Shown here one piece after another: positions 2,900 through 61,149 of a stretch of DNA of 64,000 bases. The notes under the pieces are model-generated. The model saw nothing but the letters and a program-made list of their open reading frames with translations. It did no database searches and was not told where the DNA came from. The number at the start of each line of letters is the position of its first letter. Positions within the stretch are counted from its first letter, which is position 1. Origin of the DNA: a virus; the IMG/VR virus record IMGVR_UViG_3300046804_005087, positions 1 to 64,000 of that record; one strand, given 5' to 3'. Position numbers and translations under genes: made by a program.

Positions 2900-3160
2900 A
2901 TGGCTTTATATGCTTTAGTCTCAGGCAATCAAGTTATGTATTCCGACGGAACGAAAGTGACCGTCAAACCTAAAAAACAATCTCCACGCAAAAAAGCTAT
3001 CAAGGTCGGATCAACTGTAATGGTTAATTTTGATTCCGAATGTATTGCTGTTACTACTGCAAAACGTCCAGATGGCTGGTTTGAATTTGAAATTATTCAA
3101 GGAAAAGACAAAAACAAAAAAAGTGCGTGTCACAAAAAGCTTTTAACGTTAATTGACTAA
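2900..3160 (+). CDS. hypothetical protein, basic
   Basis: 86 aa, Lys-rich, with an SH3-like pattern (VGSTVMVNF...WFEFEIIQGK). GAGG lies 10 nt upstream of the ATG. It sits directly under the strong promoter of module copy 1 and is therefore probably early. No family recognised. Confidence 0.6.
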   Translation: MALYALVSGNQVMYSDGTKVTVKPKKQSPRKKAIKVGSTVMVNFDSECIAVTTAKRPDGWFEFEIIQGKDKNKKSACHKKLLTLID

Positions 3161-4686
3161 TTCTCTAAGTCTTCCCCCGCTTCAAGTAGCCGCAAAATCG
3201 ACTCATAATCAGAGTCACTAAGGGGCAAGTCATAACTACTGCCAATTCGAGATAGTTTATCGGAGTCCTCTAACGTAGTGGACTCTGTTTCTGCCATATC
3301 CTGTCCATCTTGACTATTTTGAGCATCGTCCTCTGGCTCATTAGTCTCACCCATAGCCGCTTCAATTTCTGCCATATCGTCCTCATCTAGTGTGATGTTT
3401 ACCCCGAACTGACTACCACCGAACCGGGATTCTAGGATGGTTTCCGCCGGTAGTCCCAAAGCCGCGTACTTCTCATCAGCCTCAGCATAGATTTTATACT
3501 CATCCGCACGATCACGGTCAGATTTAACCAGGATAGATGGATAGGCGATTTCATACGCTAGGCGATCGCCAGTAATGCTAGGCATAATCAAATCGGTTAA
3601 CCGACATAGGTAGGGCGTAATGATATCGCTCTGGTAGTTACCGACCATTTCTGCCCATTGCTCATGATCGGATTTCCCCGACTCACTCATTGCCCCCTGT
3701 TTAGTCGAACCTAACAACCGACTACGGGTAATGCGACTACATGCCACAAACATATCAATTACTAAGTTAACTAGGCTATCAATACCACTGAAGGAACGGT
3801 TGATAAACCCCGCATCTTCCCTGGCGGCGTCCAAAACCATGAGATTAATTGACGACAAACCGACTTTAAAAAGCTCTAATCTGGTTTGGATATCTTTCTG
3901 TTTACCCTGTAGCACCATATCGGCTAGACCATCCATCTTGTACCAGAAACCCGATGCTGATTGTAGATAATTAGACGCGGCTTTACTGGTTAACGTCATG
4001 TCGCTAAAACTGTCAATTAACACCTCAATGACAGACCGATCTTTAAAATCATTGCGGTATAGCATCTCCCCTGTCAGTTCAACACCATAGAATCGTAATA
4101 CTCTATCAGGATGAATCTCAGGTACATAGCTAAAGTAGCCAGGTTTGAGGTCATCCATCATAGCGGTGTAGTGGGGGTCTTTGCCGTAGTAGCCGCGATT
4201 ATAACTAATCCTATCCCGTCCAAAGATAGCGCCGCTTCTGACCCCCTTGACGCTCTCTAAATCGACGGGCTCACTCAATTCTTTACCGTCGTCAATGTCT
4301 AAAACGATATGACAGTTCCCTTCAACATTGGCAATGATTAGCGCTTTTTTAATAGCATTTAGCCCATAGTGTTTAAAGCCGGCAATATCATAAAATACAA
4401 TCTCATCTAATCGTTGCTTAATCTCCGTTCCCAGATCTGTATCTTCTTCAAACTGCCATTCAGGGCATTGTCGCAAACTATCGACGGGGTAAGCCGTGCA
4501 AGCCGTGTTAATCAGGGGATTTATGAATAATTCGTAAGCCTCATCTAGGGTTAGTCTAGGTTGGTAATTGACTGCAATGTTATTGGCTAAGCCTAGTCCA
4601 TTAACGGTGTTGCTAACAGCACTAATCGCCCTCCCAAATACCCCATTGGCATCATTTAACCAGCTAACATGAAATGTATCAGTCAT
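3157..4686 (-). CDS. portal protein (DUF1073-type)
   Basis: 509 aa. It matches the DUF1073 portal family by overall plan: an N-terminal AVNYQPRLTLDEAYELF, a central RSVIEVLIDSF and the diagnostic GSTKQGAMSESGKSDHEQW stretch near residue 325, followed by a long acidic C-terminus. It would form the dodecameric DNA channel at the head vertex. It diverges from the terminase pair, sharing a 34-bp promoter region, which is unusual because portal and terL are normally co-directional. The stop overlaps the convergent gene at 2900 by 4 nt. Confidence 0.85.
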   Translation of the reverse strand: MTDTFHVSWLNDANGVFGRAISAVSNTVNGLGLANNIAVNYQPRLTLDEAYELFINPLINTACTAYPVDSLRQCPEWQFEEDTDLGTEIKQRLDEIVFYDIAGFKHYGLNAIKKALIIANVEGNCHIVLDIDDGKELSEPVDLESVKGVRSGAIFGRDRISYNRGYYGKDPHYTAMMDDLKPGYFSYVPEIHPDRVLRFYGVELTGEMLYRNDFKDRSVIEVLIDSFSDMTLTSKAASNYLQSASGFWYKMDGLADMVLQGKQKDIQTRLELFKVGLSSINLMVLDAAREDAGFINRSFSGIDSLVNLVIDMFVACSRITRSRLLGSTKQGAMSESGKSDHEQWAEMVGNYQSDIITPYLCRLTDLIMPSITGDRLAYEIAYPSILVKSDRDRADEYKIYAEADEKYAALGLPAETILESRFGGSQFGVNITLDEDDMAEIEAAMGETNEPEDDAQNSQDGQDMAETESTTLEDSDKLSRIGSSYDLPLSDSDYESILRLLEAGEDLEN

Positions 4687-11374: not shown

Positions 11375-11519
11375 ATTCTACACAATCAACTGCCTTACTG
11401 TCAAAACGCCATTTTAGCCAGAATCCCTAAAACTCTGAAAGCCTTACCCTGTCTAGATTACAAGGTGTTTCACCCTCTTAAGGATATTATAGGGGGTGAA
11501 ACAGTGGGATTTAGGATGG
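11375..11519. promoter_or_regulatory. divergent regulatory module, copy 2
   Basis: Minus-strand TTGACA (11399-11404), 18 bp, TAGAAT (11375-11380) drive the ASCH-like gene. Inverted repeat arms are GTTTCACCCTC (11467-11477) and GGGGTGAAAC (11493-11502). TTAGGATGG lies at 11511-11519, facing PhoH. The length between outer boundaries is again 128 bp. Confidence 0.85.
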
Positions 11520-11547
11520 TGATATAGGACTCTTACGGGAATAACTT

Positions 11548-21816: not shown

Positions 21817-21850
21817 AAAACTTACCTCAAATGTTTGCTCAATTTCCCTC

Positions 21851-22002
21851 ATTCTACACAACCAACCGCCTTACTGTCAACACACCCGAAACCTCAAAAA
21901 CCCTAAAACTTTAAAACCCTTGCCCTGCCTAGGTTTCAAGGTGTTTCACCCTCTTAAGGAATCTATAAGGGGTGAAACACTCCGATTCGGTGACTAAGAT
22001 AT
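21851..22002. promoter_or_regulatory. divergent regulatory module, copy 3
   Basis: Minus-strand TTGACA (21875-21880), 18 bp, TAGAAT (21851-21856). Inverted repeat arms GTTTCACCCTC (21943-21953) and GGGGTGAAAC (21969-21978). Module length 128 bp. CTAAGATAT at 21994-22002 faces the + strand gene. Confidence 0.85.
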
Positions 22003-23658: not shown

Positions 23659-24360
23659 CTAATGCTTAATTACCAGCGTTGTAGTTTCCGGTAGATTAGC
23701 GTCTGGGTAGCACAATCGCCATACGTCATGAGAATACAAGTTCTTCCACTCAAAACGAGGGCAGGGAACTCGCTTAATTTCCTTTTTGAGAAACAGACTC
23801 ATTGCTTTTAGCTTGCGCCATTTAAACTTTGTTTCAGAGACATCATTAAACTTGGCGATACGGACAATGGAACTGTAATCGAACAACTCATCAACAGCTT
23901 CTGACAACAGTTCATTTTCTTGCTCTAGCAGTTCCTTTTCAGCCTGTGCCTTCTCAAGTTCTAACTGCAATCGCCCCGCTTCTAACAATGCTTCCCCGTA
24001 GGATTTCGGGATATTGGCGATCGCCGTTGACTGGACTTCAAACCCTGCTAGTTTGTGCAACGAAGCACGAATTCCTAGTTTAGAAAACTTTTTTAGCAGT
24101 GACGGATTGTCTTTTTCTAGCCAATCAGCCATTGTATTTTCGTCGATGAGCCGTACTCCTTGAATCCCTTGCCCTGTCTGGATTTCAGCCGATTTAAAGT
24201 TGTCTTTCCGTACCCCTCCCATCCGTGACGATATGGTGGTTTTTGGGACACCACTCATTCGGGAATAGCCTGCTTGAGTCGCAAAGCTTTCGCCGGTTTG
24301 GGTATTGATGACCAATTCAATCCCATCTTTGTCAAAACGTTCGTAACTTACAATACTCAT
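23659..24360 (-). CDS. antirepressor-like regulator A
   Basis: 233 aa. The first ~120 residues (MSIVSYERFDKDGIELVINT...TGESFATQAGYSRMSG...LHKLAGFEVQSTAI) are near-identical to the protein at 53123-53851. The C-terminal halves differ: here a coiled coil (~130-165), then a KFKWRKLKAM region. The layout, a conserved N-terminal recognition domain and a swapped C-terminus, is typical of phage antirepressors. GGAG precedes the ATG. The leader hairpin is described separately. Confidence 0.65.
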   Translation of the reverse strand: MSIVSYERFDKDGIELVINTQTGESFATQAGYSRMSGVPKTTISSRMGGVRKDNFKSAEIQTGQGIQGVRLIDENTMADWLEKDNPSLLKKFSKLGIRASLHKLAGFEVQSTAIANIPKSYGEALLEAGRLQLELEKAQAEKELLEQENELLSEAVDELFDYSSIVRIAKFNDVSETKFKWRKLKAMSLFLKKEIKRVPCPRFEWKNLYSHDVWRLCYPDANLPETTTLVIKH

Positions 24361-38716: not shown

Positions 38717-39448
38717 TTGAGCGTTTTACAATGGTCGGCAACTGAAATCCGCATTCACGAACTCGCTAAGCGGGTTTGTGAACTGTACAATAACGCTGAA
38801 CTCAAAAAACTTACCAAGGTGAGTCCCCAGACCATCCGTCGGTGGGCCCAGGGTTGGGAGGATAAGGGGAATAGACCTACTGAATCAACCGCGATGTGTT
38901 TACCGGCGATTCTGGCAGTCAGTGAGAATAATTATCAACGGTATTTAAATGGGGACATAACCCTAGATGAATTTTGGGATCTCAAGGGCAGTGCCAAAAT
39001 AACAGCCGGCACTGAAATTACGGTAGAGTCAGTCCTAAACGACGCCAAACGACTATCTACAAGTGACTTGCTCAAGTTAATGTCCAATCTGTTTTTAATC
39101 ATCGTTCCCAAGGAATTAAACGAATTACAAGCCGAACCCCAAACTGAGTCCCCTAGATGGGTGGAGTTGAATGAAACGGCAAAAAAGCGTCTAAGCACCC
39201 TACTGAATCTGTCCAATCTTTACCTTGAGCAGACCTATCAATCCATCATTGAAGCGGGGGCAGACAAAGGGTTGGTAGAAGACATGACCAATGGAGGATT
39301 TAAAAACAATTACACCGAACCTATTTACTATACTCTACTCCCTTTCCTATGCCACTGCTCAAAATGGCACGGGGTTGTACCCTCCGATGCTAACCCCGCT
39401 CAGTACTTTGATTCTGTCGAACAATTGGAAGCTTCACTTAATAGCTAA
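38717..39448 (+). CDS. HTH-containing regulator
   Basis: 243 aa starting at TTG 38717, preceded by a perfect AGGAGG at 8 nt spacing. An HTH-like region at ~28-48 is LTKVSPQTIRRWAQGWEDKG. The remainder is helical with Cys/His near the C-terminus (LPFLCHCSKWHG). It is a probable transcription regulator. It is convergent and overlaps the sigma-like gene by 4 nt. Confidence 0.65.
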   Translation: MSVLQWSATEIRIHELAKRVCELYNNAELKKLTKVSPQTIRRWAQGWEDKGNRPTESTAMCLPAILAVSENNYQRYLNGDITLDEFWDLKGSAKITAGTEITVESVLNDAKRLSTSDLLKLMSNLFLIIVPKELNELQAEPQTESPRWVELNETAKKRLSTLLNLSNLYLEQTYQSIIEAGADKGLVEDMTNGGFKNNYTEPIYYTLLPFLCHCSKWHGVVPSDANPAQYFDSVEQLEASLNS

Positions 39449-40143
39449 ATACTAGCTAACACTTTTTCCTTGCCTTGACGACAGATTTCATCTAACTTTT
39501 CCCAGTTCACGCCTAACGTTAGCATCGCCATTAACGGTTCTTCAGTGAGTGCCGTATATTCCCGGTCGTCTAACACATCGGCGCAACGGACGCTTAGTAG
39601 TTTTGGCTCATCGTTGTCCAACACGTCGAATACGTCTACTACGTCACCGTCGTTGGCTTTTAACTGGGTTACAAACCGATATTTGTAATCTCGTTCATTT
39701 GATGGCGGTTTAATTTGGCGATCGCCCTGAGCTTCCTCCTGAATTAGTGCTTTTATCCACCGATACGCATAGCTAGAAAATTTAATCTCCTTGCCGTCCA
39801 CTACTGGCTCATACAGGTACAGAGCATAGATTAAGCCGATATGCCCCGCTTGAATTAAATCATCGGGGTTTAATTTGTTATTGCGGCGGTGTTTGCGGTG
39901 CGCCTCACTAATCACCATGGCGGTGTTATGGGCAATGAGTTGATGCATGGCCTTTTCTGCCCTGAGTATCTCTGGGGTGTTTTTAATTCTTGCCCGCGCC
40001 GCCCGTAGTTTCAATTTTTTCCATCCCCCGCCAAAAGATTTTTTAACTTCCAGAGATAGTGCATCCTTCAACGGCTTAAAATCCTGCCACAATTGCCGCT
40101 GCTCAATTTTAGTTAACGAGCGTAGTTTGATGCGAGAAGCCAT
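39445..40143 (-). CDS. phage sigma-70-like factor (region 2)
   Basis: 232 aa from ATG 40143 (an upstream in-frame Met at 40173 is possible). Sigma region 2 is clear at ~75-145: LNPDDLIQAGHIGLIYALYLYEP, then IKFSSYAYRWIKALIQEEAQ (compare DLIQEGNIGLIRA and KFSTYAYWWIRQAI of host sigma). Canonical region 4 is not recognisable in the C-terminal ~90 residues, so -35 recognition may differ or be absent. It is the best candidate to read the TTAAGATAG promoters. It is expressed from module copy 4. Confidence 0.85.
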   Translation of the reverse strand: MASRIKLRSLTKIEQRQLWQDFKPLKDALSLEVKKSFGGGWKKLKLRAARARIKNTPEILRAEKAMHQLIAHNTAMVISEAHRKHRRNNKLNPDDLIQAGHIGLIYALYLYEPVVDGKEIKFSSYAYRWIKALIQEEAQGDRQIKPPSNERDYKYRFVTQLKANDGDVVDVFDVLDNDEPKLLSVRCADVLDDREYTALTEEPLMAMLTLGVNWEKLDEICRQGKEKVLASI

Positions 40144-40278
40144 AATCCCTGTAACTCGTAATGTCTGAATCATAACACAGTTTGATAGTGTACACCGCTA
40201 TTATGCCAAACCCACTCAATTATTTCAATTATTTCCAATCATTTTATTTATCACCAATTGCCGACAATCCTAATCCAC

Positions 40279-40415
40279 AATCTACACAATCAACCACCTT
40301 ACTGTCAATATCCCAAAATACCTGAAACCCCTAAAATCTTGAAACCCTTACCAGTCAAGGATTGTAAGGTGTTTCACCCTCTTAAGGAATTTATAGGGGG
40401 TGAAACAGTGGGGTT
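40279..40415. promoter_or_regulatory. divergent regulatory module, copy 4
   Basis: Minus-strand TTGACA (40303-40308), 18 bp, TAGATT (40279-40284) drives the sigma-like gene. Inverted repeat arms GTTTCACCCTC (40371-40381) and GGGGTGAAAC (40397-40406). 128 bp again. No rightward gene follows and no good TTARGATAG motif is found on that side. Confidence 0.85.
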
Positions 40416-40422
40416 TTAGCAA

Positions 40423-53122: not shown

Positions 53123-53851
53123 TTAGCGCGTGAAATAGCGATGGATAGCAGTATCTAGATGTTCGGTAATTTCATAGTGATTGACAGAATACCGCCCTAC
53201 TTGCTCACTGAATGCCGGTTCAATTTGAGATTTTACAAACTTTCCTAACTGTTTACCGTCGCCAATTTGCGTGTCAGAATAACCCAACGCTTTAGCCCGT
53301 ACTTTGACGATAGTATATTGCTTGGGCTTTTCTGCTACTGGCAAGTATTTTAGATTTTGCTCCAAGCTAATCTGATCGACTAACGCATCCTTGAGTAAAT
53401 GCTTCAAGATGCCCTCACTGAGCGATTCAAGCTTGCTTGCCGCTTCGATGTAGTCAACAGCGTCACGGGTTGGCAAAATCCGTTCTACTGGCTGTTGTGC
53501 TTCGATGATTGCACTAGACGTAATCTCAAACCCTGCTAGCTTATGCATAAACACTCGGACTCCCAGCTTTAATAGTTGAGTTGCCATAGTGGGATTATCC
53601 TTAGGTAGCCATTCAGCAATCAAGTCTTCATCAATCAAGTTGACAGTCCGCAACCCTTGCGGTGTCTGGACTTCAGCCGTTTTAGTCTCGCCTTGGTTGA
53701 CAGTTTGACTGTACCGTTTTGATATTGCCTGCTTAGTGAGTCCGCTCATCCGAGCATAGCCTGCTTGGGTTGCAAAACTTTCACCTGTCTGGGTATTGAT
53801 AACTAATTCAATCCCATCTTTGTCAAAACGTTCGTAACTTACAATATTCAC
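53123..53851 (-). CDS. antirepressor-like regulator B
   Basis: 242 aa. The N-terminal ~120 residues are nearly the same as regulator A (23659); the C-terminal part (~140-240) differs and contains YTIVKVRAKALGYSDTQIGDGKQLGKFVKSQIEP and HYEITEHLDTAI. The promoter (TATAAT at 53920-53925, minus strand) is of sigma-70 type. It may bind the same target as A but with a different effector. Confidence 0.65.
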   Translation of the reverse strand: MNIVSYERFDKDGIELVINTQTGESFATQAGYARMSGLTKQAISKRYSQTVNQGETKTAEVQTPQGLRTVNLIDEDLIAEWLPKDNPTMATQLLKLGVRVFMHKLAGFEITSSAIIEAQQPVERILPTRDAVDYIEAASKLESLSEGILKHLLKDALVDQISLEQNLKYLPVAEKPKQYTIVKVRAKALGYSDTQIGDGKQLGKFVKSQIEPAFSEQVGRYSVNHYEITEHLDTAIHRYFTR

Positions 53852-54001: not shown

Positions 54002-54147
54002 TAAAAACACAATCAACCGTCTTACTGTCAACGCCCCTAAAATACCAAATTCCCTAAAATCCTGAAACCTAGACAGGATAAGGATTCCAGGGTGTTTCAC
54101 CCTCTTAAGGAATTTATAGGGGGTGAAACAGTGGGGAATTAGGATAG
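54002..54147. promoter_or_regulatory. divergent regulatory module, copy 5 (leftward -10 decayed)
   Basis: TTGACA (54026-54031, minus) is kept but the -10 reads TTTTTA (54002-54007), and no leftward gene follows. Inverted repeat arms GTTTCACCCTC (54094-54104), GGGGTGAAAC (54120-54129). TTAGGATAG (54139-54147) faces dcd. Length 128 bp. Confidence 0.8.
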
Positions 54148-54172
54148 TGGCAACTGATAACATGAGGTTCTG

Positions 54173-54745
54173 ATGACGGTTTTAGTTGATCACGAAATAG
54201 CGTCTCTGGCCAGAGGGGAGATACCGATTCACATTTTGGTGGACTACTCACACAGAGGCCATAACCTAAGCCCGCGTATTTTGCCCCTGGTAAAGCCGTT
54301 TGACCCCGACCTAGTCAATCCCCATAGTCTCGACCTACGGATAGGGGAGACGGCTAAATTGCGGGTGATGGGGGGGTATAAGGAAATCGACCTATCTGGC
54401 TACTGTGCGGATAGACCCTACATGATGATTCCAGGCGATCGCCTATTGGTGGCAAGCCTGGAAACATTCAACATCCCAATATTTCTCGAAGCGACCTTTT
54501 ATCTGAAAAGCTCACGGGGGCGGGAATGGTATGGGCACCAATTAGCAGGCTACATTGACGCGGGGTGGCACGGGTCAAAACTGACCATGGAGATTACCAA
54601 TGATGACATTGAGCCGTTGCCCCTATACTTTGGGATGAAATTTGGGCAGTTAGCTTTCCGATTGCTGAATAGTATTTCCAGCAAATCTTACGCTAAAGTA
54701 GGTCGTTACAATAACGATGTATGTGTTATGGAGAGTAAGGGTTGA
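54173..54745 (+). CDS. dcd: dCTP deaminase
   Basis: 190 aa. Family blocks: NPHSLDLRIG near 50, FYLKSSRGREWYGHQL near 105 (Ser/Arg of the active site) and GYIDAGWHGSKLTMEITND with the catalytic Glu near 140. It deaminates dCTP to dUTP, feeding ThyX for dTMP. GAGG before the ATG. First gene of a rightward unit running to about 56557. Confidence 0.92.
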   Translation: MTVLVDHEIASLARGEIPIHILVDYSHRGHNLSPRILPLVKPFDPDLVNPHSLDLRIGETAKLRVMGGYKEIDLSGYCADRPYMMIPGDRLLVASLETFNIPIFLEATFYLKSSRGREWYGHQLAGYIDAGWHGSKLTMEITNDDIEPLPLYFGMKFGQLAFRLLNSISSKSYAKVGRYNNDVCVMESKG

Positions 54746-54879
54746 TGGCTAGTTTTATTTACTGTTTTTATATGTGGCTCACTCATTTATTGGCAACAGA
54801 CTCTAACTCTTTTTGGTGGATATTAAACGGGCATCTGTTTCAAATAAATCAACGAATAGAAACTTTTGAGAAAGACTAA
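54745..54879 (+). CDS. small hydrophobic protein (44 aa)
   Basis: ATG 54745 overlaps the dcd stop (TGATG) and its TAA overlaps the next ATG (TAATG). Aromatic, hydrophobic N-terminal half (FIYCFYMWLTHLL) suggests membrane association. The double coupling supports it being real. Confidence 0.6.
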   Translation: MASFIYCFYMWLTHLLATDSNSFWWILNGHLFQINQRIETFEKD

Positions 54880-55220
54880 TGACTGGTATCTACAAAACCC
54901 GTGCTAATTATCAAAATAAAACTGTTGACTATCAATCTTTGATTAGCGCTGAATGCGACAAGGTTAAGGATATGTTGCTAGAAAAAAACCGTAAATACGG
55001 CAATAGTGCTTTAGACCCTAAACGGATATTTTCTAGCGCCGATCCTATTGAACAAATTAACGTCAGAATTGACGACAAACTAAGCCGCATCGCTTCTAAT
55101 CAATCTGACGACACAGAAGACGCTGAGCTTGATTTGATTGGTTATCTAATTCTTAAACGGGTCGCTAAACAACGAAATAACGAATTGCAGAACTTGTTTG
55201 GAGCAAACCATGATACCTAA
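54879..55220 (+). CDS. DUF1599/Nmad1-like protein (nucleotide-modification associated)
   Basis: 113 aa. Family core: LLEKNRKYGNSALDPKRIFSSADPIEQINVRIDDKLSRI...DDTEDAELDLIGYLIL, matching the Nucleotide modification associated domain 1 (DUF1599). These are found with base-hypermodification or dNTP-metabolism genes; here dcd and thyX. Reaction not established. Confidence 0.82.
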   Translation: MTGIYKTRANYQNKTVDYQSLISAECDKVKDMLLEKNRKYGNSALDPKRIFSSADPIEQINVRIDDKLSRIASNQSDDTEDAELDLIGYLILKRVAKQRNNELQNLFGANHDT

Positions 55221-55413
55221 AGAATGCCAAGAATTAACATTAGAGCAAAGCTTAGAAATGCGTATGATTGCAGACAATGTAGCTAAAATGCCCGCTGATG
55301 AGCTACGCACTCATATTTTATGGTTGTCTAAAATGCTGATGATTAAAGGCAACATCTTAAAATATTTTATGAGCAAGGAATTAAAAGTTAATCTCAAAAG
55401 TGCTAAAAAATAA
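55210..55413 (+). CDS. nblA: NblA-like phycobilisome degradation protein
   Basis: 67 aa from ATG 55210 with GGAG 6 nt upstream. It fits NblA: ELTLEQSLEMRMIADNV, then ELRTHILWLSKMLMIKGNILKYFM, compared with the NblA pattern L-S-L-E-Q-x-F-x-L-R...L...M-x-V-x-x-N. NblA links phycobilisomes to Clp protease so that the antenna is degraded. A phage copy may redirect amino acids and light energy during infection. Known in some freshwater cyanophages. It lies in the dcd operon, so it is expressed with nucleotide genes. Confidence 0.82.
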   Translation: MIPKECQELTLEQSLEMRMIADNVAKMPADELRTHILWLSKMLMIKGNILKYFMSKELKVNLKSAKK

Positions 55414-56072
55414 TGGCTTATAGTCTATCGGATTTAGTTTACTCAGAACGTCAGCGGCGATACCTGTTTCCGTCCGGTAGGCTAGTGCCAGAATCGCAAG
55501 TTAATAAATACATCAAGTCGTTTCAGGCAGTCTATCTTAAGCGGGTTGTTGACGACACTAACGCTCTGGTTAACGGTAATTTAACCGCTAGGGAGTGGGA
55601 AGAAAAAACTGCGTTAAATATTAAAGATGTCCACGTTGCTTTAATGCGGTTTGGTCGGGGTGGAAAAGACAAAGCCTACGCGATGCAATACCTAGACGTT
55701 GCTAACGAATTAAGAACGAATCAGTACCCTGCATTCAGATTGTTAGTGCAAGATTTAAGGGATGGTAAATTGTCCCGTAAAATGCTCGATTATCGCCTCT
55801 CACGGTTTATTCAAAGTAGTCGGGTATCGTATGAAATGGGGCGGCGTTCCTATGCAATTTATGATGATAAAAATACCCATGCTTTGCGTAAATTAGACGC
55901 CCAAGCCAAACACTGTGAAGACTGCGTTAGATACGCTGCAATGGGCATTAGACCGATTGGACAATTACCAGTACCGGGGCAAGCGTGTAAGTGTGCCCAG
56001 GCTTGTAAATGCTCGATTTACTATGGTAGTGAGATGAGTTTAATTGAGTTGAAAAATGGATGGCTAGCCTAA
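55413..56072 (+). CDS. head morphogenesis / minor head protein
   Basis: 219 aa. Helical, with a C-terminal Cys-rich segment HCEDCVRYAAMGIRPIGQLPVPG then CKCAQACKCSIYY, the pattern at the end of SPP1-gp7-type minor head proteins. It would help early capsid assembly or DNA ejection. It starts on the last base of nblA (TAATG). Confidence 0.7.
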   Translation: MAYSLSDLVYSERQRRYLFPSGRLVPESQVNKYIKSFQAVYLKRVVDDTNALVNGNLTAREWEEKTALNIKDVHVALMRFGRGGKDKAYAMQYLDVANELRTNQYPAFRLLVQDLRDGKLSRKMLDYRLSRFIQSSRVSYEMGRRSYAIYDDKNTHALRKLDAQAKHCEDCVRYAAMGIRPIGQLPVPGQACKCAQACKCSIYYGSEMSLIELKNGWLA

Positions 56073-56557
56073 TTGCTACAACAATCGACAAAGTTCAAAC
56101 GATGACAGCAATTCCTGTCAATCATGATTCTGACGTTCAACCTTCGGAGTTGTCATGGGAGGCGTTAGGCGCTATAGTTGGCTTGTTAGTTCCTGTCTTG
56201 ACTGTATGCGTTTTATTTGGTAGTATTCAGGCTAATTTAAGCTTTGTTAAAGAGTCAATAGTAGAATTTAAAAATAGAGAAAAAGAAAAAGAAGAAAAGC
56301 ATAGCAAGACCGTCAATGACTTAAAAAATGAAATTCATTCTACAGAAAAATCCTTATTAGAAAAACTCGAAGAATACCAAGAAGAGACAGAAATTAATCA
56401 AAAAGAAAAACGTGAAGAGTTTAAAGAATATTTATTAATGCATTTAAAAGAATTAATATTACCTCTGCATCGGGAAATTGATCAATTAAAAATCCTTCAC
56501 CAGCGCCGGGACGAGACTTTAAACGACCTCAAGCGAAAAGTGAAGGACTTAGAGTAA
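56060..56557 (+). CDS. membrane protein with long coiled coil
   Basis: 165 aa: one transmembrane segment (ALGAIVGLLVPVLTVCVLFGSI, ~36-57), then ~105 residues of Lys/Glu-rich coiled coil. It may be a holin- or spanin-like protein or a membrane-anchored tail partner. Overlaps the head gene by 13 nt. Confidence 0.6.
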   Translation: MASLIATTIDKVQTMTAIPVNHDSDVQPSELSWEALGAIVGLLVPVLTVCVLFGSIQANLSFVKESIVEFKNREKEKEEKHSKTVNDLKNEIHSTEKSLLEKLEEYQEETEINQKEKREEFKEYLLMHLKELILPLHREIDQLKILHQRRDETLNDLKRKVKDLE

Positions 56558-57222: not shown

Positions 57223-58194
57223 TTAATTTAAAACCGCTTCGATGATTTTTTGCATCATGAGCGGGGGAACGGCATTACCGATCATTTTGGTGTCTAATTT
57301 TAGATCGCCACTAAATTGATACCAATCAGGAATAGTTTGCCAACGGGCTAAGCATTGAGTATTAGCTTCGTAGGGTTGACCATCAATAACAATTGTGGCT
57401 TGTTTAGGAGATACCCTTACTTTGCCTGACATCGCCTTGATCGTGAACATCGGCTGATGTGCAAAACGGATTGTGTTGTTTGGGATGCCGTCTTTTTTCC
57501 TGGATCCGCTTCGTTGAATGACAAAATCCCCCATCCATTTCAGAAGCGTTGTGTGAACGGCGCCAGCGCCCTTGTGGTAATTGATGATCGACTCTTTTTG
57601 CCAATTGGTTAATGTTGTTAGTTTGAGAGTGGGGATTAGATCGGCGATCGCCTCATACCAGTTAATAGGCTTTTGGTTTTTCCATTCAATATTATACAGT
57701 CCTTGTATTTTTCCCCAATGCTTTGAGGCGACTAAAAATAATCGTTTACGTGATTGTGGTACGCCATAATCAGAGCAGTCAAGCAAGGACTGTCCAACAT
57801 AATAATCATTGTTTTTTAAGCAACGTTTAATGTTGGCAAGCGATTTGAAACTGGCATATCCTGCCACATTTTCCAGGCTAAAATAATCAGGTTTTAGCGT
57901 TTCAATCGCCCGACAAATAGCATTAGCCAATTCAATGTCTTCTGAGGTTTCTTTACCATTCTTAGCCCGTGATGCGTTGATACATGGCGGGGAAGCATGG
58001 AGCCAGTCGGGGCTATTAAGAGTTTGCCAATACAATGACTTAACATCAATCGTGTAAGTGTGATGTTCAAAATTATTGCAGGCAATCTCAGCAATATTAT
58101 CGTCAATCTCAACGCCCCAGATGGGTGTTAACCCTGCTTGCATAGCGCCTATATCCGCGCCGCCCATGCCTGTAAAAAGACTAGCAAATTTCAT
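57223..58194 (-). CDS. C5-cytosine DNA methyltransferase (second)
   Basis: 323 aa, complete. Motif I FASLFTGMGGADIGAMQAG, IV ASPPCINAS, VI SLENVAGY, VIII CSDYGVPQSRKRLFLVA, X KMIGNAVPPLMMQ. Catalytic Cys in SPPC. Full-length and distinct in sequence from the one at 1-968. It overlaps the next gene by one base. Target unknown. Confidence 0.93.
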   Translation of the reverse strand: MKFASLFTGMGGADIGAMQAGLTPIWGVEIDDNIAEIACNNFEHHTYTIDVKSLYWQTLNSPDWLHASPPCINASRAKNGKETSEDIELANAICRAIETLKPDYFSLENVAGYASFKSLANIKRCLKNNDYYVGQSLLDCSDYGVPQSRKRLFLVASKHWGKIQGLYNIEWKNQKPINWYEAIADLIPTLKLTTLTNWQKESIINYHKGAGAVHTTLLKWMGDFVIQRSGSRKKDGIPNNTIRFAHQPMFTIKAMSGKVRVSPKQATIVIDGQPYEANTQCLARWQTIPDWYQFSGDLKLDTKMIGNAVPPLMMQKIIEAVLN

Positions 58195-60932: not shown

Positions 60933-61021
60933 AAATGCCTCCACTAGGCTGATTAGGTATAAAGCTATATTAGCAAGCACACAACTAAAAGACAAGCATT
61001 TGATTGATGTGATTTCCGACT

Positions 61022-61149
61022 GTCAACCCTGTTATAAATATCTAAGAAGGGGTTAACACCATGTAACCTAATCAGGGTAAGGGTTTTAGAATTTTAGGGA
61101 TTTTAGTCAAAATGGGGCATTGACAGTAAGATAGTTAGCGCTGTAATAT
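61022..61149. promoter_or_regulatory. divergent regulatory module, copy 6 (variant repeat)
   Basis: + strand TTGACA (61120-61125), 18 bp, TAATAT (61144-61149) drives 61185. The inverted repeat is changed to GTCAACCC (61022-61029) and GGGTTAAC (61050-61057), still spanning 36 bp, and the whole is still 128 bp. The inner CAGGGTAAGGGTTTTAGA block is conserved. Confidence 0.8.

Follow-up and report, generated by a model that had tools for sequence, protein, structure and literature searches.

The locus studied here raises the question of why a phage should make NblA, and why it should make it beside an enzyme of DNA-precursor synthesis. NblA binds phycobilisome proteins and passes them to the host Clp protease, and infected cells bleach. 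The NblA proteins of phages have so far been explained either by amino-acid supply or by photoprotection, with no way to choose between the two; both hypotheses are already in print (PMC4103541, section 10).

The window, by which is meant the whole 64,000-nucleotide stretch that was analysed, makes up most of a 66.8-kb virus record. This is a tail-phage contig with siphovirus-like genes, and portal, large terminase, tail, thyX, nrdB, PhoH, clamp and lysozyme genes are found on it. The initial annotation had placed a gene for NblA inside a nucleotide-metabolism operon, behind dcd and an Nmad1-like gene and in front of a head gene, and had suggested that the antenna is broken down from early-middle infection on, for amino acids or to protect the photosystems.

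A divergent phage NblA

The features discussed are collected in Table 1. The proposed nblA frame was searched with the Pfam model of NblA, PF04485, and matched it above the curated cut-off of 25 bits (34.7 bits, E 2.4e-8), residues 8-55 aligning with positions 1-48 of the 50 in the model. It is the sole match to this model within the 66.8-kb record; NCBIfam gave no match to the frame. A second profile, made from 26 host NblA rows after the long-branched L267 and L268 had been dropped, gave 43.9 bits with this frame and 4.9 bits with the next best of 840 window frames, and the maximum for 5,000 shuffled versions of the sequence was 12.4 bits. The two profile matches confirm that the frame is an NblA gene. 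When a profile of the window NblA and its two relatives was run against the PDB, the NblA chains 2q8v (1.2e-6) and 2qdo (1.9e-6) were matched, and a further NblA chain, 1ojh, scored 0.0097, no better than unrelated DnaG chains.

Table 1 Features of the window discussed in the text
Feature	Position	Strand	Evidence and remarks
Portal gene	3157-4686		
Sigma-factor-like gene	39445-40173	-	phrog_351 4.6e-16
Dispersed intergenic element	54007-54150	+	palindrome 54093-54130; ends 23 bp before dcd
Further copies of the element	2720-2862, 11375-11529, 21820-21979, 40271-40419, 61012-61136		core degenerate in copy at 61012
dcd, dCTP-deaminase-like	54173-54745	+	PF22769 3.2e-16; phrog_1663 4.6e-31
phrog_1485 gene, possible Nmad1/MazG-like nucleotide enzyme	54879-55220	+	phrog_1485 5e-14
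nblA, NblA homologue, 67 aa	55210-55413	+	ATG start; PF04485, PDB chains, AF2, dN/dS
Probable head gene, 219 residues	55413-56072	+	phrog_24776 1.1e-32, PHROG without annotated function
165-aa protein, likely membrane segment and coiled coil	56060-56557	+	weak phrog_20 holin match 4.5e-5
C5-cytosine DNA methylase	57223-58194	-	PF00145 1.4e-44

Two further NblA relatives are 75% and 64% identical to the window copy. The gene occupies the same slot in contigs L003 and L006 and in L002, which is 99.99% identical to the window, and these were the three of 23 records with the 219-residue gene in which PF04485 was matched. Between the window and L003 copies dN is about 0.20 and dS 1.2-1.6, which indicates purifying selection on nblA. 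Homology, this selection, conservation in the relatives and the setting on a virus contig (portal, terminase, tail) together bear out its description as an auxiliary metabolic gene.

Two trivial origins were considered. A false reading frame or chance match is ruled out by the host-only profile with its shuffles and by conservation in L003 and L006, and host contamination by the portal, terminase and tail genes on the same contig.

The N-terminal LTxEQ-type motif is present as LTLEQ at residues 9-13 of the window NblA. It is kept in all three window-clade proteins, and L9, E12 and Q13 are invariant across 26 aligned NblA rows. An AF2 model (pLDDT 90) is a helix hairpin of residues 11-25 and 29-57, a short helix followed by a long one, the arrangement expected of NblA. 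Foldseek with this model returned no NblA chain among five hits, all at chance level, and a repeat alignment covered the same five; for so small a hairpin this says little.

The KHQWGL-type tail found in most host copies is missing from the window NblA. Relative to Leu51 and Lys53, the contact residues of Anabaena NblA, F53 occupies the leucine place and S55 (G in the relatives) the lysine place, with the invariant K56 adjoining, so that the near-terminal lysine is shifted by one place relative to the presumed binding lysine. Contact of two C-terminal NblA residues with the phycobilisome is described in PMC5083919, where LTMEQ is also cited as the motif of phage NblA. The NblA of the Planktothrix phage PaV-LD, reported active in PMC9602691, likewise has no KHQWGL tail. 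The same source reports phycobilisome loss on expression of phage NblAs in cyanobacteria. Phage NblA, its early expression in Ma-LMM01 and its activity in cyanobacteria are covered between them by PMC4103541, PMC9602691, PMC5780444 and PMC5083919.

A phylogeny with phage and host copies had been proposed in the initial annotation. It gave a firm clade and its nearest hosts; with 50 columns the tree does not reach to the deep forks. Two of its rows, L267 and L268, are on long branches. The three window-clade NblAs form one group (support 99/99) on a long stem of 1.12 changes per column. Nearest to it by path and by score are host NblAs that have no KHQWGL tail and belong to the LLMIKxN(V)xRDLM type (L258-L262, L269 and L270, many of them in tandem pairs), together with the Thermosynechococcus-like L263 and L264, whose genus was assigned from their match to 2q8v. 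Even these are only 31-37% identical to the window NblA over 49 residues. For the viral rows the starred branches force only two acquisitions or losses; the tree suggests about seven.

Of 244 genomes sampled from the phylum to which the central Nostoc genome belongs, 92 gave a PF04485 match; a first genome scan with the window-clade profile returned no relative. Searches of the phage collection by tblastn found nothing with the window, L006 or Anabaena NblA and PaV-LD only with a T. vulcanus-type segment. The nblA of the Microcystis myovirus Ma-LMM01 was missed by tblastn and recovered with the Pfam model, and the near-emptiness of these searches is put down to tblastn being too weak for the family. 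Scans of viral contigs reach only relatives of the queries used, so the lineages listed below are not a census. Phage NblA as such was already known; the window protein is a new and divergent one, and it adds a lineage from a phage with siphovirus-like genes.

The gene unit and the element in front of it

The dCTP-deaminase-like gene was placed correctly by the initial annotation. Its best solved-structure match was 2qxx (4.8e-13), the dCTP deaminase of M. tuberculosis; KSSRGRE and TMEITN in the window protein fall opposite KSSLGR and TLELSN in that chain, stretches with residues of catalytic role. With the NCBIfam equivalog TIGR02274 it scored 70.6 bits, under the cut-off of 92.8.

The naming of the second gene fared less well. 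Its family, phrog_1485, was found in at least 586 viral stretches. Pfam gave no match for the window copy, PF07659 (DUF1599, 'Nucleotide modification associated domain 1') included, and DUF1599 was matched in one of 28 relatives, at E 0.045, so that 'Nmad1-like' is a weak label. AF2 gave a three-helix model, for which the Foldseek hits were at chance level, two of the 25 being MazG proteins.

The gene behind nblA carries no PHROG annotation as a head protein, and its probable assignment as the head gene claimed rests on position. A homologue lies directly behind the annotated portal gene in S-CBS4, and behind it with one small gene between in Cr-LKS4. In 11 of 20 distant contigs (all 11 inspected) it is preceded by a long ORF that occupies the position of the portal. 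The portal gene of the window itself lies elsewhere (Table 1).

All five genes from dcd to the 165-residue gene are on one strand. nblA starts 11 bp inside the phrog_1485 gene and has one base in common with the 219-residue gene, which in turn overlaps the 165-residue gene; the membrane segment of the last was judged by eye from the translation. These overlaps fit one transcript and dcd is solid, so part of the proposed nucleotide-metabolism operon stands. The second gene, however, is only presumed to be nucleotide-related, and the unit also takes in the probable head gene and the gene for the membrane/coiled-coil protein.

The order in L006 is portal - dcd - small ORF - phrog_1485 - nblA - 219-residue head gene. 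Portal and head gene thus bound the set on either side, which makes it a cargo cassette within the structural module as well. In L003 it is the terminase that precedes the set, and the place of phrog_1485, from dcd to nblA, is taken by other genes; the gene there matched only PHROG families without assigned function and is putatively MazG-like. The TALE hits obtained with it were discarded as repeat artefacts, since no single stretch passes. On the simplest reading, the window clade acquired dcd and nblA together as a cassette at the site between portal and head gene and has retained it since.

Some further observations were made around the set. An alternative start of nblA lies 17-18 codons upstream in L003 and L006, where the extension carries the conserved MDVAGYYxLQGQNLD. 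The window has a similar piece, ELQNL, read in the frame of the preceding gene, as if moved there by a frame change. The C5-cytosine DNA methylase gene of the window has similar counterparts downstream of the nblA set in both L003 and L006.

The intergenic element in front of dcd, roughly 145 bp long, is present in six copies. Its 38-bp palindromic core, TGTTTCACCC-N18-GGGTGAAACA, is near-invariant apart from the degenerate copy, and occurs five times in the window with up to two mismatches and not at all in 100 shuffles. Copies end 17-36 bp before dcd, PhoH, ORF 22015 and an SSB-like gene (the degenerate core); one stops some 2 bp short of the 90-residue ORF 2446-2718, and one lies between the clamp gene and the sigma-factor-like gene, about 100 bp upstream of the latter. 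The presence of one element before dcd, PhoH and, in degenerate form, the SSB-like gene fits joint control with replication genes, by a putative phage regulator that would drive these genes and, in the window, the nblA unit as well. The early-middle timing suggested in the initial annotation would be in keeping with such control and with the early expression of nblA in Ma-LMM01 (PMC4103541).

The genome of L003 (contig G002, L351-L354) carries a different palindromic repeat, GTTGCATATAC...GTATATGCAAC, which is unrelated in sequence and present seven times. It is found at several of the equivalent loci (PhoH, SSB-like, clamp, thyX) but not before the L003 dcd. Perhaps regulator and operator diverged in sequence with no change in the genes under their control. 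Candidates for the regulator of the window element are two related genes, 53123-53851 and 23659-24360 (-). These share about 170 bp at and before their starts, and one of them has a weak transcriptional-regulator match (phrog_4936, 8.3e-5). Promoter and terminator scans gave counts no different from shuffles, and Rfam gave no match.

DNA-precursor genes beside nblA in other phages

Ma-LMM01 resembles the window phage in having nblA within a run of nucleotide genes. It differs in phage type and in NblA branch, and the partner is ribonucleotide reductase rather than dcd. Its order is nrdA-nblA-x-x-nrdB, with nblA overlapping nrdA, and the same order was seen in four of 12 related contigs (the four looked at). 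The overlap had already been noted in PMC4103541, which also gives early expression of nblA in the same pattern as nrdA.

PaV-LD likewise has a short NblA without the KHQWGL tail, and a PaV-type copy, L190, is 41% identical to the L006 NblA over 46 residues. Its nblA overlaps by 4 bp a kinase gene that the record names thymidine kinase; the counterpart in the related L169 is a thymidylate kinase (PF02223, 4.5e-35). The gene order of PaV-LD was repeated in four of 26 related contigs (the four looked at). Unlike the window set, this is a two-gene unit amid opposite-strand genes, with neither dcd nor a head gene.

Other lineages were found among viral contigs. In L203 (3300042518_001688) nblA is flanked on one side by a class II ribonucleotide reductase gene (phrog_367, 1.2e-133; PDB 1l1l) and on the other by a thyX-like one. 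In L306 (3300027807_000003) it lies directly behind a class II ribonucleotide reductase gene. In both contigs nblA and the reductase gene overlap. A Microcystis-type family comprises 48 contigs with near-identical NblA, and in the one examined whole (G272) thymidylate synthase-like, nrdA and nrdB genes follow nblA at 4, 7 and 9 gene calls. The nearest DNA-precursor gene is 11 gene calls away in L245, 9 in L246, and in L195 7 counting MazG-like genes or 13 without them. No such gene was found in L303/L304, and none is annotated in the stretch viewed around nblA of S-SCSM1, where nblA lies between virion-protein and helicase genes. NblA of S-SCSM1 and other marine cyanophages is the authors' HHpred call in PMC9602691. 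PF04485 matched none of five marine cyanophage records at E up to 10; marine cyanophage NblA is too divergent for this model.

The distance from nblA to DNA-precursor genes was compared with that of random genes in eight lineages, the window clade being left out, and nblA was the nearer genome-wide (p = 1.5e-5, or 3e-5 without MazG-like genes). As early genes cluster, a local null of genes near nblA only was also run, and gave p = 0.0415, 0.0065 and 0.0007 at 15, 25 and 40 genes each side. In these tests gene calls were the longest ORFs, with Ma-LMM01 (less about 12 kb at 50-62 kb) and PaV-LD taken by record annotation; L306 and L203 were treated as one, likewise L304 and L303, S-SCSM1 was left out, and the query set was partly taken from genes already found beside nblA (thymidylate kinase, class II ribonucleotide reductase, thymidylate synthase-like). 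In the window clade alone dcd is two gene calls from nblA, which is not significant (p = 0.17). By these measures the closeness of nblA to DNA-precursor genes is real and moderate. Within the open-access text searched, no mention was seen of nblA recurring next to genes of DNA-precursor synthesis in different phage lineages.

What the arrangement may mean

The window gene probably encodes a working NblA-type proteolysis adaptor that is made together with dcd during DNA-precursor synthesis. One transcript, starting behind the phage-wide palindromic regulatory element, would carry nblA with dcd and another presumed nucleotide gene, and antenna breakdown would run while the phage makes DNA precursors. 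Binding by NblA would lead to loss of the antenna. This could release amino acids and nitrogen, required alike for new nucleotides and for virion proteins, and could lower excitation pressure. Against this stand the missing KHQWGL-type tail, the shifted lysine and the lack of an NblA match in Foldseek, as well as the nblA lineages without a close DNA-precursor gene and the probable head gene in the same unit. A broader proposal can be put forward tentatively: that phage nblA is part of a DNA-precursor supply module, fused again and again in unrelated cyanophages to dcd or to genes for ribonucleotide reductase, thymidylate kinase or thymidylate synthase because dismantled antennae feed nucleotide synthesis with nitrogen and amino acids and both are timed together, the module of the window being wired to a phage-specific palindromic operator shared with replication genes.

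The place of the set in L006 and the outgroups, in which the head-gene homologue comes straight behind the portal gene or one small gene further on (in the 11 contigs, behind the long ORF in its place), would also be expected if accessory genes were simply inserted between portal and head gene and nblA came to adjoin dcd by chance, with no metabolic link. The swapping of phrog_1485 for other genes in L003 agrees with such a cargo site. Yet nblA has DNA-precursor genes as neighbours in phages where its surroundings are quite different and no portal gene adjoins it, and the excess of these neighbours survives the local null; chance insertion is rather unlikely. About as unlikely is photoprotection as the main benefit, in which removal of the antenna would cut excitation and damage during the takeover of protein synthesis and gene order would reflect shared early timing only. 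It has been proposed for hosts in surface blooms (PMC4103541, section 10), but it does not predict nucleotide genes as neighbours over any other early gene. A third alternative, that the NblA fold was kept and its job changed, for example to tying up the Clp machinery of the host or to binding something else, could draw on the long, well-supported stem of the window clade and on a tail unlike that of host copies. The conservation of LTxEQ in all three members, the strong purifying selection and the reported activity of the divergent PaV-LD NblA (PMC9602691) make it improbable.

The preferred reading thus remains that of a working adaptor made along with dcd, and it is the recurrence of DNA-precursor neighbours that merits the attention of specialists. 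If nblA is tied repeatedly to DNA-precursor genes, the supply explanation of phage NblA would be strengthened, and it could be tested by isotope tracing from phycocyanin into phage DNA.
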